From: an uncultured Bacilli bacterium
Lineage (GTDB): Bacteria > Bacillota_I > Bacilli_A > RF39 > UBA660
Assembly (NCBI GenBank): GCA_947627435.1
Contig: CANQWB010000001.1
Span: 71,952-104,434, forward strand
Length of the DNA stretch: 32,483 nt
Direction: 5' to 3'
Below are positions 6,639-27,581 of this stretch, piece after piece; the first letter of the stretch is position 1; the number at the start of each line of letters is the position of its first letter. The notes beneath the pieces are model-generated. The model was not told where the DNA came from. It saw only the letters and a list, made by a program, of their open reading frames with translations, and did not search any database. Both the position numbers and the translations under genes were made by a program.

Positions 6639-6895
6639 ACCAAGTCAAATTATTCTTTCAAGTGCTCATGTAAAAAAACTTTTGTATCAATAATACCAAT
6701 CTTATATTGGTTTCTAATAGTTTTTATTAAGAATCATATATATTTAGCGATTCAAAAGAATGATCAGGCAATAAATAGTGGCAAAAGAATATAATATCAT
6801 ATGCATTACTATTTGCTAGAAAAATACTTTGAAAACTTGCCTTTTAAGAAAAAGTGGTGTATTATATTAAGTATTTTAGTAAGGAGGAGTTTGTT

Positions 6896-9800
6896 TTGAA
6901 AAAAGTTGTAACCATTTTATTAGCACTTGCCGTTTTCTTAAATCCTTTTCTACCATTTCTTTATGTGAATGCGGGAGAAACAGAAACGATAGAAAACATT
7001 AAGAAAAATAGCGATAGTTATTGGAGTACGAAAAATGCACCAATATTTTATGGTGCTACTAAAATAACAATTAAAAAAGGAATTATAAATAACTTTGATG
7101 TTTTAGATGCCAGATTTAGAATTTTTGCGAAGGATTTTGAAGATGGCGATTTAACACCTAATATTACGTATACTGGTACAGTAGATGTAAATCAGGTTGG
7201 TACTTATGCAATCACTTATAGAGTAAAAGATTCTCATAATAATGAAACGACGTTATCGGTTCCTGTTATTGTAACAGATGATGAAAATGCAAAAATCAAT
7301 GTCGAAAGAACATTATATACTATTCCATCTGTATGGAATATGGATTTAGCAGGATTTTCAAGATGTAATTATGGAGATCGTCAAATTCTTGGTATTTATA
7401 TGCCAAAAGGAACTAGTGTAAGAGCGAGAATTCTATCTTCTGATAATAATATTGATGTAAATTTTATCACGAATGATACAGCCAAAGAAATTTCACAAAC
7501 ACTTAACCAAGACGGAAGTTGGATTACGCTACAAAATAAACTGAATAATGGTACCTATGAAGATGCTGTTCCTTATTTTAGAACAACAGTTTTATCAACT
7601 GGTGATCTTTCAAAAACTTTCAAGATAGAACTAGAATATGGTACAGATGTCTCTGAATTAAATTATTATCACTATAAAGACAATGAAACAGGATATTTTG
7701 CTGATTGGAGAGCAAACAAAGCTACTTATTCTGTTGTTGAAAATGAAGTGGTATCAATTGTAGTGCCATTTACTGATATTGATAAAATGGTAAATCATAA
7801 GGCATATGATAATGTTTTTCCAACGTTAGATTCCTTTTTGGAATATTATAAAAAAGTAGTTGACAAAATGGATGAATATGTAGGACTAGATTTAAATCCA
7901 GTCAAATTAACAGATCAAAATGTTAGAACAAAATATTTAGTCAGAGCCAATATTCATGGTGCGGGAGCTGCTTATTATAATGGAAATCATGTAGGAGTCA
8001 ACGGTGCTTCTGTATATTCTTTCTTCCAGATGAACTGGGGAGGTCTTCATGAGCTTGCCCATGGTTATCAAGGTAATCTTGGAAAAGGAAATATGGGTTT
8101 AGGAGAAACCTCTAACAACATTCTTGGACATTATATTCAAATTGATAAAAATATCTATTTTTACCCTGGTGATTGGCTAGGAAGCTTAAATAAAATTGAA
8201 GAAAATAAAAATTCTGAGCGTTTAGAAGGAAAAGCTTTTACTTCCATCGACGTTTCAACAAGACTTTATATGTTGATCAATTTATTTGATTATTTTGAGG
8301 GTGCAACAACATATGCAAAAATATTTAGTTGGTACCGTGAAAAATTGAATAATGGAACTTTGCCTACTAGTAAGGATGCGAATCAAGATATTTATCCATT
8401 AGCAATTGCGGATATTTATCATGTGGATATTACACCATATATGGAAGCTTGGAATCTGACTGTTTCAAGTTCTGTAAAAGAGGAAATCTATAGTAAAAAT
8501 TATCCAACGCTTACCATTTTAAAAGATATGGTTTCAGATGACTCTTTAAATACGATTATGCAAGGAGAAAATCTCGATATTAAATATGGATTAGTTCAAA
8601 ATGATATTTATGAAAAATATCATATTACGGGAGATTTAACGCTAAATATTGCAATTGATGATATGACCAATTTAAAAGGAAAAAAACTTGTCATAAAATC
8701 TGGTAACAAGACGGTAAAAACAGTAGAGATTACTTCTTCTTCTATGAAAATAGAAGGTCTGAATTTAGGTTCTTATTATTTACAAATGCCTATTTTAAAT
8801 GGTTATGATCAAGACAGCGCAAATGTTTTGATTAAGGAAGGAAATCAAAATAGTTATACTTATTCTTATACAAAATTAGAAAATATTGAATTGAACAATT
8901 ATCTTTCTGTTACATTGCAAGGAGTATATGAAACAGTTGGTTGTAAACTTACATTTATGGATCACTATAAAAAGGCAAACATCGAATTTGGTGGAGCCGA
9001 CTTTAGAGGTATTCAAAATGCTTCTGTTAAAATTACGGACCAAGCTGGAAAGGTAATTTTAGAGGAGACAAAAGGATATGATGCGCAAGGGAACTTCATT
9101 CCAAATGATGCAAACGGTAGATACTTTAATTTTAATAAAGGTTCTTATGAGGTAGCATTAAAGCCAGGTTATATTATAGAAATTACACATTCTAGGTATA
9201 GTAATAGAGTAAAATGGAATAGTACAATTTCAAATACACTTGTGCCAGAATATTCTCCTACGAGCGAAACTACAAGATATATTGTAATGGAAGATGGAAT
9301 ACGTGTAGAAGGAATGGATGAATCTACAGCAGCCAATTTAGCGTATACTTCTTTGAAACAGTATATTGTAAGTCAAATTGAGAATTATAAGGAGAATGCA
9401 ACCGAAGAAGAATTAAGCAATCGCTTAGTTAACTTTAAAGAAAAAGCACGAATTATCTATTTACATAGTATGTTAAAAGAAGAAGATCAAAAAGCATATA
9501 ATGATTTGATTAAAAAAGTGAAACAAGGTGGATTACCAGTCATTACTTATCATGGTAATTCTGAATACAAAGTAGGAACGAATATTGATTTATATTCTTT
9601 AATTAGCTCTGTTGATAATGAAGATGGTAATATCATTATTGATAAGAATAGTACAAAAATTGATTCTAATTTGAACATAAACAAAGTAGGAACTTATAGT
9701 ATTACTTATTCTGTAACAGATTCTGATTTGAATGTTTCTGTATATAAAGTAAAAATCAAAATAGTAAAAGAACCTAATTTAAACGAATCAGAGGAAAATA

Positions 9801-10240
9801 AAAAAGAACCAGAGATGAAAAATCCTGAAGAAGAAAGCAAATCAGAAGTTAAGAATCCTGAGGAAGCTCAAAAAGAAGAAAATAAATCAGAAACTTCTCC
9901 TAGTTCGTCTGAAAATAAATCAGAAACTTCTTCTAGTTCGTCTACGAAACCAGATAGTAACATTGAAAATAATAAAACACAACAGCCTTCATCAATAACT
10001 CAAGGTGAAGAAAACAAGGAAGGATCTTCTTTAACGGAATCAAGTGATTCTAAAGAGGAAATGAAAGATACTTCTACTACAACAAAAGAGGATCAAGATG
10101 TTTCTGAAACAAAACAAGAAAAGAAAAAAACATTCTTAGATAAGTGGTTAGATGATGAATATACTATTTTTGAAGGTGTAATTGCAGTATTGATTATGCT
10201 TGCTATGGCATTTATATTAGAATACTTAACGCGAAAATAA
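6896..10240 (+). CDS. Surface-anchored M60-family zinc metalloprotease (mucinase-like) with DUF5011/Ig-like domains
   Basis: TTG start after AAGGAGGAG; signal peptide MKKVVTILLALAVFLNPFLPFLYVNA; zinc motif GGLHELAHGYQG...LGETSNN; Ig-like repeats (FEDGDLTPNITYTGTVDVNQVGTYAITYRVKDSHNN and NEDGNIIIDKN...VGTYSITYSVTDSD); Glu/Ser-rich linker; C-terminal TM EGVIAVLIMLAMAFILEYLTRK. Confidence 0.85.
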   Translation: MKKVVTILLALAVFLNPFLPFLYVNAGETETIENIKKNSDSYWSTKNAPIFYGATKITIKKGIINNFDVLDARFRIFAKDFEDGDLTPNITYTGTVDVNQVGTYAITYRVKDSHNNETTLSVPVIVTDDENAKINVERTLYTIPSVWNMDLAGFSRCNYGDRQILGIYMPKGTSVRARILSSDNNIDVNFITNDTAKEISQTLNQDGSWITLQNKLNNGTYEDAVPYFRTTVLSTGDLSKTFKIELEYGTDVSELNYYHYKDNETGYFADWRANKATYSVVENEVVSIVVPFTDIDKMVNHKAYDNVFPTLDSFLEYYKKVVDKMDEYVGLDLNPVKLTDQNVRTKYLVRANIHGAGAAYYNGNHVGVNGASVYSFFQMNWGGLHELAHGYQGNLGKGNMGLGETSNNILGHYIQIDKNIYFYPGDWLGSLNKIEENKNSERLEGKAFTSIDVSTRLYMLINLFDYFEGATTYAKIFSWYREKLNNGTLPTSKDANQDIYPLAIADIYHVDITPYMEAWNLTVSSSVKEEIYSKNYPTLTILKDMVSDDSLNTIMQGENLDIKYGLVQNDIYEKYHITGDLTLNIAIDDMTNLKGKKLVIKSGNKTVKTVEITSSSMKIEGLNLGSYYLQMPILNGYDQDSANVLIKEGNQNSYTYSYTKLENIELNNYLSVTLQGVYETVGCKLTFMDHYKKANIEFGGADFRGIQNASVKITDQAGKVILEETKGYDAQGNFIPNDANGRYFNFNKGSYEVALKPGYIIEITHSRYSNRVKWNSTISNTLVPEYSPTSETTRYIVMEDGIRVEGMDESTAANLAYTSLKQYIVSQIENYKENATEEELSNRLVNFKEKARIIYLHSMLKEEDQKAYNDLIKKVKQGGLPVITYHGNSEYKVGTNIDLYSLISSVDNEDGNIIIDKNSTKIDSNLNINKVGTYSITYSVTDSDLNVSVYKVKIKIVKEPNLNESEENKKEPEMKNPEEESKSEVKNPEEAQKEENKSETSPSSSENKSETSSSSSTKPDSNIENNKTQQPSSITQGEENKEGSSLTESSDSKEEMKDTSTTTKEDQDVSETKQEKKKTFLDKWLDDEYTIFEGVIAVLIMLAMAFILEYLTRK

Positions 10241-24702: not shown

Positions 24703-24758
24703 AATTTTTTCAAAAACTATCAATTTTAAATATTTGTGAAAATGAATCTATAGAAAAA
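24703..24758. repeat. 56-bp direct repeat, copy 1 (flanks the pilin-like gene)
   Basis: AATTTTTTCAAAAACTATCAATTTTAAATATTTGTGAAAATGAATCTATAGAAAAA; 54/56 identical to 26575-26630. Confidence 0.85.
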
Positions 24759-24817: not shown

Positions 24818-24935
24818 GAATATGTCAAATAAATCATAAAATAGTTTGCGAAGAGCAACAAAGGGAATGAGAGGGTAACCCCCTCTAAAAGTTGTCTAAA
24901 AAAATGATAACATCCAAAGTATGCTATTTGTAAAC

Positions 24936-24960
24936 GGGGGGGGGGTAATCCCCTTTTTTT
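24936..24960 (+). promoter_or_regulatory. G10 homopolymer joined to a terminator-like hairpin (GGGG-TAAT-CCCC-T7) in the leader
   Basis: CGGGGGGGGGGTAATCCCCTTTTTTT directly upstream of the RBS. Confidence 0.6.
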
Positions 24961-24982
24961 ATTGTCTAAAGGAGTGAAAGAA

Positions 24983-26452
24983 ATGAAGAAAATGAAGAAA
25001 AAAGGATTTACATTAATTGAATTATTGGCGGTAATCGTAATATTAGCAATTATCGCACTAATTACAACGCCAATGATAATGAATGTAATAGAGAAAACAA
25101 GAAAAGGAGCAGCCATTCAATCAGTCAATGGATTACTAGAAGCAGGAGAACAATATCAAGTAGAATCTATGATGGATGGAAAACCTTCAAATGTAATTGA
25201 TTTAACGAGTGATGCCTTAAGTACAAAAGGAAGTAAACCAGAAAGTGGCTTATTAGTAATAGATTCCTCTGGAGATATGAGTATTATAGCAAAATATGGA
25301 AAATACTGTATAGAAAAGAAATATGAAGATGAAGAACCAACAATAGTAGAAAAAAATCTATGTGTAATGGAAGAAGATGAAGTAGATGTTAAAATCTATG
25401 GAGTAAGAAGAAAAATCAATAGTTCATCAACAGAGTGGGAGAGAATTAATAATAGTGTTGGATTAGAAGCGAATGCCCAAATAGGAACAGAAAATACAGA
25501 AGTAACAAATGATTTTGATACTATTTATCCATGGAGTGGTATCTATACTTACAGTTGGAATAAAGAAACAAAAGAAGAAACCAAATGGGATGAAGAAGGA
25601 TTTTCATATACCAATGATTATATATTTACAAAAATACCAGAATTTTACTATAGAAGATATCAAGAAAATGGATATGAATATGTTTTAATAAGTAATAAAA
25701 ACATAGATGGATATACAAAAAGTGATGAATTTTCAATAGGAAGATATACGATGTCTGGGTCTGAAGCAGGAGTTTATAGTAAAAGTGGGGTAAAACCATT
25801 ACAAGAGAAAATAATTACAGATTTTAGGAACTATGCAAGAGCATTAGGAAATGAATTTAGTCAATTAGATTATCATTACTTTATAATCCAATTATTATAT
25901 TTAGTGGAATATGCAGACTATAATTCACAAGAAAAATTAGGAAAGGGATATACTGCTAGTAATACTGCCCCTGTTGAAAGCGGTGGATGTGATGATTTAG
26001 GAATGAAATCAGGAACACTCAATAATGATGGACAACATTCCATGATATACCGAGGAATAGAAGATATATATGGAAATATATGGCAATTTGTAGATGGAAT
26101 CAATATAAAAGATAATCAAGCATATGTATGTTATAATCCAAGTGAATATGATTCAGATAAGTTTGAAGGATGTTATCAACAATTAGGATATGTAAATGCA
26201 ACTAATAATGGTTATATAACTAAATTAGGGTATGATTCTAAAAATCCATTAATAGCTTTTCCAATAGAAATAGGTGGAAGTAATAGTACATATATCCCAG
26301 ATAATTATTGGCAAGCATCTGGAGATAAAATAGCTCTTGTCGGCGACAATTGGTTTCACGATTCTCAGGCTGGCTTGTGGTGTTGGAATATGAATGACAT
26401 TTCGTCTAATGTGTGGACTGGCCACGGTGCTCGACTTCTTAAAACCAGTTAA
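24983..26452 (+). CDS. Type IV prepilin-like protein with C-terminal C-type-lectin/FGE-like domain; candidate DGR target protein
   Basis: RBS AAAGGAGTG; MKKMKKKGFTLIELLAVIVILAIIALITTPMIMNVIEKTRKGA; C-terminus EDIYGNIWQFVDGIN...ALVGDNWFHDSQAGLWCWNMNDISSNVWTGHGARLLKTS matching the layout of DGR variable proteins. Confidence 0.8.
   Translation: MKKMKKKGFTLIELLAVIVILAIIALITTPMIMNVIEKTRKGAAIQSVNGLLEAGEQYQVESMMDGKPSNVIDLTSDALSTKGSKPESGLLVIDSSGDMSIIAKYGKYCIEKKYEDEEPTIVEKNLCVMEEDEVDVKIYGVRRKINSSSTEWERINNSVGLEANAQIGTENTEVTNDFDTIYPWSGIYTYSWNKETKEETKWDEEGFSYTNDYIFTKIPEFYYRRYQENGYEYVLISNKNIDGYTKSDEFSIGRYTMSGSEAGVYSKSGVKPLQEKIITDFRNYARALGNEFSQLDYHYFIIQLLYLVEYADYNSQEKLGKGYTASNTAPVESGGCDDLGMKSGTLNNDGQHSMIYRGIEDIYGNIWQFVDGINIKDNQAYVCYNPSEYDSDKFEGCYQQLGYVNATNNGYITKLGYDSKNPLIAFPIEIGGSNSTYIPDNYWQASGDKIALVGDNWFHDSQAGLWCWNMNDISSNVWTGHGARLLKTS
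26334..26452 (+). other. Putative DGR variable region (VR) with IMH-like 3' end
   Basis: Hand-counted GC 52/110 (26341-26450) against 36/120 in 26221-26340; Trp/Asn/Asp/Ser/His-rich codons at the end of a CLec-like domain; invariant-looking GARLLKTS end; hairpin just downstream. Confidence 0.6.
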
Positions 26453-26574: not shown

Positions 26575-26630
26575 AATTTTTTCAAAAACTATCAATTTTA
26601 AATATTGGTAAAAATGAATCTATAGAAAAA
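26575..26630. repeat. 56-bp direct repeat, copy 2
   Basis: AATTTTTTCAAAAACTATCAATTTTAAATATTGGTAAAAATGAATCTATAGAAAAA. Confidence 0.85.
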
Positions 26631-26750: not shown

Positions 26751-27581
26751 ATGATAGAAACAAAAATCAATTTATTCAATGATGCGATGTTTAAAGCAAT
26801 TTTCAGAAATCCAAAAAATAGAAAGATAATATCCGAATTCTTATCAGAAGTAACAGGAGTTAAACAAGAATTATTAGAACAAGCCAATTATCAAGGAGGA
26901 GAAATCCCAAAAAAGAAACTAGAAGAAAAAGGAAAGATAGCAGATTTGATTATTAAGATAGAAGATAATCAACAAATTATCGTAGAGATGAATCAATATA
27001 GAAGCAATTATATATTTGAAAAGAATACAAGTTATGCTTTTTCCATATCATCAGAAAGTAGTAAAAAAGGAAGAAGAGAATATCCAAGAGTAATATTAGT
27101 GAATCTAGATAAATTCAATCCATTTCAAACAAAAGAAGGAATCATACGATTTCAATTAAGAGATGAAGAAGGACATGTAGAAACAGAAATATATGAATCG
27201 ATTCATATCATACTTGAAAATATAATAGACAAGCAGTATAATAATAACAAGATAAAAAAGTTTATAGAATTCATGGCGAGTGAAACGATAGAAGAGATGG
27301 AAGAGAAGTTTAAAGGAGATGAAGAATATATGGCGGCGATAAGGACGGTAGAAGAATTATCGACAGATCCAAACTTTGTAGGATATTATGATTTAGAGGA
27401 AGCGCATAAGCAAGAATTAGAAGATATGAGAGAAACTGGATATGATGATGGAATGGAAAAAGGTAAAATAGAAGTAGCAAGAGCCATGTATGAAGAAGGA
27501 TTACCACTTGAAATGATATCAAAGATTACAAAATTAACAATCGAAGAGATTCAAACAATACAAAATGGATCAGAAATGTAA
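26751..27581 (+). CDS. Rpn family / PD-(D/E)XK nuclease family transposase-like protein
   Basis: LFNDAMFKAIFRNPKNRKIISEFLSEVTG...KGKIADLIIKIEDNQQIIVEMNQYRS; C-terminal GYDDGMEKGKIEVARAMYEEGLPLEMISKITKLTIEEIQTI. Confidence 0.85.
   Translation: MIETKINLFNDAMFKAIFRNPKNRKIISEFLSEVTGVKQELLEQANYQGGEIPKKKLEEKGKIADLIIKIEDNQQIIVEMNQYRSNYIFEKNTSYAFSISSESSKKGRREYPRVILVNLDKFNPFQTKEGIIRFQLRDEEGHVETEIYESIHIILENIIDKQYNNNKIKKFIEFMASETIEEMEEKFKGDEEYMAAIRTVEELSTDPNFVGYYDLEEAHKQELEDMRETGYDDGMEKGKIEVARAMYEEGLPLEMISKITKLTIEEIQTIQNGSEM

Follow-up and report, generated by a model that had tools for sequence, protein, structure and literature searches.

A prepilin-like gene with a phage-tail-like ectodomain

The window (the whole stretch of 32,483 nucleotides analysed here) lies on contig C1 of G000, a 1.21-Mb draft genome of an uncultured Bacilli bacterium made of 55 contigs and 87% complete. 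The gene under study and the features in and around it are listed in Table 1, where DGR stands for diversity-generating retroelement. Elsewhere in the window, positions 6854-10240 encode a large protein, predicted from the sequence to be secreted and to be anchored in the membrane by its C-terminus; it contains a HELAHG motif and might be a mucin-type peptidase.

Table 1 Features in and around the prepilin-like gene
Feature	Position	Strand	Details
Direct repeat, left copy flanking the cassette	24703..24758	+	56 nt, 96% identical to 26575-26630
Conserved leader with G10 tract (24936-24945) and terminator-like GGGG-TAAT-CCCC-T7	24921..24978	+	candidate phase-variation element
Prepilin-like gene, probable DGR target	24983..26452	+	489 aa; ATG 24983, stop 26450-26452
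Prepilin cleavage/methylation motif and hydrophobic helix	24995..25096 (approximate)	+	PF07963, TIGR02532; model helix 11-38
Phage-tail-like ectodomain, residues ~139-489, predicted C-type-lectin (FGE-type) fold	25397..26449	+	L182 fibre identity, Foldseek
DGR variable repeat (VR), 101 nt	26336..26436	+	nearest template L182:7532
IMH-like 3' end GGTGCTCGACTTCTTAAAACCAG, common to phage DGR targets	26426..26448	+	alignment; overlaps VR end
DNA hairpin TTGGAGGC-GGTCA-GCCTCCAA right after the stop codon	26462..26482	+	GC-rich, 8-bp stem; folding as DNA -8.8 kcal/mol, z -4.2
Direct repeat, right copy flanking the cassette	26575..26630	+	56 nt, pairs with 24703-24758
PDDEXK_2-family gene	26751..27581	+	PF12784 E 6e-16; near-identical to ~27430 in duplicated C18 copy

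The open reading frame is intact and scored above the cut-off for both PF07963 N_methyl (E 4e-8) and TIGR02532 prepilin (E 6e-8); a GFTxxE methylation motif and a hydrophobic helix are both present at the N-terminus. These matches bear out the proposal of the first-pass annotation, made from the letters alone, that a prepilin N-terminus is fused to a large ectodomain. The presence in G000 of a PilB-type ATPase and a prepilin peptidase, both encoded on contig C10, suggests that the product may be exported by the cell's own type IV pilus machinery and serve as a variable adhesin.

The ectodomain matches PHROG 5302, a tail protein (E 1e-49), and is 59% identical to the tail fibre of L182, a prophage in another, rabbit-gut Bacilli genome that has no such prepilins. 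The AlphaFold2 model of the protein had a mean pLDDT of 80, with most of the ectodomain above 90. Foldseek comparison with the PDB returned chains of TaqVP and Mtd as the top eight matches, all of them DGR variable proteins; TaqVP was the best (E 1e-10), with moderate global TM-scores (0.37-0.40). TaqVP was also the sole match below E 1 in a sequence-profile search, with VR aligned on VR (E 0.014). Model and structural matches therefore agree on a C-type-lectin variable domain at the C-terminus, as had been anticipated. The closest solved structure, Thermus aquaticus TaqVP (PDB 5VF4; PMC6328139), comes from a prophage, consists of a single domain and lacks the prepilin N-terminus.

The first-pass annotation had also pointed to a jump in composition at the 3' end of the gene. 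The jump is real, but the exact counts were off by two: GC is 50/110 at the end and 38/120 upstream, instead of 52/110 and 36/120. GC3 is 0.47 in the last 114 nt versus 0.14 in the remainder of the gene, and GC content reaches 0.45 in the last 110 nt, compared with at most 0.41 in any other non-overlapping 110-nt stretch. We take this jump to be more than chance, since the interleaving of invariant and hypervariable residues that goes with it is repeated by ~18 paralogs in G000.

Variation among paralogs is confined to the variable repeat

The paralogs have the same ectodomain, most with prepilin N-termini; four congeners contain many more homologues, part of them on different N-terminal anchors. 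The G000 paralogs have a C-terminal frame in common, VGG....AGLW.W....SS......GARL(I/L)K, with hypervariable positions in between, and their mean column entropy is 1.79 bits across residues 452-489 versus 0.58-1.05 in the upstream ectodomain. In every one of the 37 paralog pairs that are at least 0.8 identical upstream, the VR was less alike than the upstream sequence (mean 0.59 vs 0.84). A pair from two other species (L321/L323) gave the same picture, with 98% identity in the 3' flank, 80% upstream and 56% in the VR.

The clearest comparison is offered by a duplicated copy on contig C18. Its 3' flank is identical to that of the studied gene at 60/60 positions and its upstream sequence at 87/96, whereas the VR is identical at 54/101 (53%). 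Past the VR the two copies stay nearly identical across most of the following gene, and the hairpin stem is intact in both. Because the flanks are near-identical and the VR is not, the last copying of the flanks was followed by a rewriting of the VR, or the two events were independent. The predicted excess of variation in the C-terminal stretch is thus seen between paralogs.

Flanking direct repeats and the duplicated PDDEXK_2 gene suggest that the cassette may have spread by recombination. Near-identical blocks and the flanking direct repeats show that recombination does copy these loci, and with many paralogs in one genome, VR cassettes might be shuffled by gene conversion as in pilE/pilS, without reverse transcription. 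We consider such shuffling improbable, because no variable segment is common to any two G000 VRs, the longest strings that two of them have in common (18-27 nt) coming from the invariant AGLW motif or from the 3' end. Gene conversion also does not predict the asymmetry at template adenines described below.

Variable repeats differ from prophage templates mainly at adenines

A prophage of genome G001 (L087) encodes a tail-fibre target and a reverse transcriptase (RT) of 356 aa, and contains several template-like repeats in series. A scan with this RT gathered viral and genomic loci in which the VR and template repeats of ~101 nt could be aligned directly. Phage VR/template pairs of this RT clade differed at a template A in 153/154 mismatches (14 loci, some closely related), which identifies the clade as DGR. 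The VRs of L183 (with its duplicate L262) and L186 did not fit the templates compared.

The VR of the studied gene, near the 3' end of the ORF, differs from its nearest template, which belongs to the prophage of another host, at 10/101 positions, 6 of them at a template A and 4 not (hypergeometric p 0.009). With 4 of the 10 mismatches off template A, the share at adenines lies below the usual criterion of at least 75% when this cross-species template is used. The VR of a G000 paralog (C8c) had 13/18 mismatches at template A (p 7e-7), and further cellular VRs had 14/19 (L317 in G003), 14/23 (L302 in G001) and 16/27 (L312 in G003). In the mismatches of the four cellular VRs that are at most 25 mismatches away from a template, the A belonged to the template in 47 cases and to the VR in 3 (p 4e-11). 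When phage VRs were used as pseudo-templates, this skew was gone (14 vs 17). Ordinary divergence would be symmetric. A mosaic model drawing on the whole pool favoured adenine in 31/38 cellular VRs; since this model is permissive (37 templates, free switching), we relied on the single-template asymmetry and its control. The expectation that variation would match template adenines is therefore strongly upheld for the family, and only modestly for the studied gene taken alone.

The L087 array was considered as the source of L302, a chromosomal VR in the same genome, and rejected, as it gave no exact account and left 9 mismatches off template A; co-resident diversification in G001 is therefore not demonstrated. 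Many paralog VRs in G000 fit no known template well and the hairpin is kept in only 2/18 paralogs, as would be expected of old or decayed targets.

Several prophage DGRs carry tandem template-repeat-like units ~150 bp apart (L087:3922-4660, L101:6805-7850 and L183:7299-7870), with up to seven units in L101/L102. In L087 and L101 the most RT-distal unit contains few adenines (12 and 10 A versus 24-25 in the nearest unit) and is perhaps worn out. For the VR at L087:3693-3793, the best reading is a mosaic in which positions 1-33 come from one template and 34-101 from another, with 8/8 mismatches at template A. Template switching would explain this mosaic, the alternative being recombination between VRs. 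On multi-template DGRs, the literature searched yielded nothing but 'multiple TRs' in Treponema denticola metagenomes.

The 3' end and hairpin are those of phage DGR targets

The last codons, the stop codon and the hairpin that follows are alike in the studied gene and in phage targets; beyond the hairpin there is no similarity. The hairpin is borne by ~30 phage DGR targets, in nearly all of them with the loop GG[TC]CA or GACCA; the stems differ in sequence yet remain paired, some with a G-T pair. An Rfam search gave no match, and an exact search of viral contigs for the hairpin of the studied gene found nothing. The IMH-like motif occurs 13 times in G000, each time at the end of a paralogous target gene.

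In Bordetella phage BPP-1, the hairpin is required for retrohoming and has a GC-rich stem of 7-10 bp and a 4-nt loop (PMC3240598). The studied gene resembles the BPP-1 target Mtd in its C-terminal VR, post-stop hairpin and C-lectin fold, and also in A-directed differences, which are modest for this gene alone. It differs in that the target is a chromosomal prepilin with no RT or template repeat nearby, and in that the hairpin loop has 5 nt rather than the 4 nt (GRNA) of BPP-1. Surface proteins do evolve rapidly, and the VR could in principle reflect ordinary fast evolution of adhesin surface loops, with the GC jump a matter of codon bias; given the sharp VR boundaries, the adenine asymmetry, the DGR hairpin and structural matches to DGR proteins only, we regard this as very improbable.

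Reverse transcriptase and template in related genomes

The first-pass annotation had placed an RT and a template repeat elsewhere in the genome. Neither was found in the assembly: an RVT_1 profile search gave no match in G000 (87% complete), DNA searches for a template repeat in the same assembly matched only paralogs or chance sequences (among the latter, weak matches on C46 and C44), and searches for the IMH-like motif led only to paralog ends. Their absence from the genome is not proven, because the assembly is incomplete. An exact search of viral contigs for a template like that of the studied VR also found nothing. The RT for this gene may be unassembled, transient (phage-borne and acting in trans) or lost.

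RVT_1 had at least one match in each of the four congeners and in many other genomes of the family. The match in G003 is a group II intron-like protein and was discarded as a DGR RT. The RTs of G002 and G004 were likewise rejected as machinery for the prepilins, since their DGRs are of a different type, in which an ATPase gene is the neighbour and the VR is unrelated. This second type (L088 and L089, on G002:C2 and G004:C55) lies beside MoxR-like ATPase and VWA-like genes and includes a small VR-like protein (MLDFTFLETEQIF...) that bears no relation to the prepilin targets.

An arrangement in cis was found in a genome of the same family and another genus, G030. Locus L014 (G030:C8:1-4236) encodes a 470-aa prepilin with a VR; downstream of it lie a template repeat and an RT of DGR type that is frameshifted in its assembly. 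The prepilin VR has 21 mismatches with the adjacent template, 18 of them at a template A and none with A in the VR (p 2e-9). Prepilins of this bacterial family thus are, or were, DGR targets.

A poly-G leader precedes surface genes

The leader upstream of the studied gene follows a pattern, GTAAAC-G(8-11)-TA..CCCC-T(6-8), that occurs 31 times in G000 (this copy included) and 20, 12 and 24 times in three congeners. The count was 0 in a genome of another family, as it was for the reversed pattern. Wherever the downstream sequence could be read (29/29 copies), the leader stands before an ORF whose product is a surface protein anchored at its N-terminus; these surface genes are prepilin-like or of the KKKGFATSAILYT type. 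The leader reaches on to a GGGGTAAA/TTTACCCC palindrome in some copies, and RNA fold z-scores range from -1.2 to -2.2. The G tract, at a regulatory position, varies from G8 to G11 among the copies in G000.

Judged from its sequence, the leader is a candidate phase-variable attenuator of a surface regulon of ~30 genes. It resembles simple-sequence contingency loci (poly-G) in that a G tract of variable length, here compared among copies of one genome, stands before surface genes. Unlike in those loci, the tract forms the left arm of a terminator-like leader hairpin.

Discussion

Template matches, 3' end, hairpin, predicted fold and confined variation support the central claim of the first-pass annotation, a DGR-type VR on a C-type-lectin domain. 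We conclude, with a probability of roughly 0.85, that a DGR has genuinely targeted this gene, in which a type IV prepilin is joined to a phage-tail-type C-lectin domain. On this reading, adenine-mutagenic retrohoming wrote the 101-nt VR, and the template repeat belonged to the DGR clade that prophages carry in this bacterial family. The RT was probably supplied in trans, by the DGR of a prophage or of another mobile element, which is either no longer present or missing from the assembly. We favour a phage-type DGR that worked in trans at some time, since the template, the hairpin and the 3' end each fit the prophage clade.

It is also possible, though doubtful, that in the distant past the prepilin genes acquired their 3' end, VR and hairpin included, from a phage tail-fibre gene, that copies were duplicated and that retrohoming has ceased, leaving ordinary mutation and recombination. 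The RT and template are absent from the assembly, the ectodomain is phage-tail-like, most paralogs have lost the hairpin, and isolates of T. denticola likewise retain leftover targets without RT (PMC4891356). Against this history stand the C18 pair, near-identical around a divergent VR with both stems intact, and the prepilin with template and RT in cis in G030. Moreover, the gene is not a fresh capture, since ahead of the VR it has only moderate homology to phage fibres.

T. denticola offers a close parallel. TvpA and the remote or leftover targets include several chromosomal genes, as here, and some isolates have neither RT nor TR; one leftover VR fits the TR of another strain, with 19/21 mutations at adenines (PMC4891356). 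Those targets are not prepilins, and a phage link was not found there (PMC4891356). DGR-diversified tip pilins of the Bacteroides type V pilus are, as the source describes them, also pilus-type surface targets, but they are lipoprotein type V pilins and not type IV prepilins (cited in PMC12632263). No type IV prepilin was found as a DGR target in the literature searched. New beyond the first-pass annotation are the ~18 paralogs, the prophage DGR arrays of up to seven template-like units, the mosaic VR and the poly-G leader.

A hypermutable lectin tip on a pilus-type protein would let a small-genome gut bacterium alter its own binding, or the binding of phages to it. The host family and the phage DGRs have target signals in common, so editing of host genes by phage DGRs is directly testable. 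More speculatively, and on balance we think it unlikely, transient prophages might lend their DGR in trans, with tandem templates and switching rewriting the tips of ~18 host prepilin-type adhesins and poly-G attenuators choosing those that are shown. If true, this would place two layers of programmed variation on one surface repertoire.
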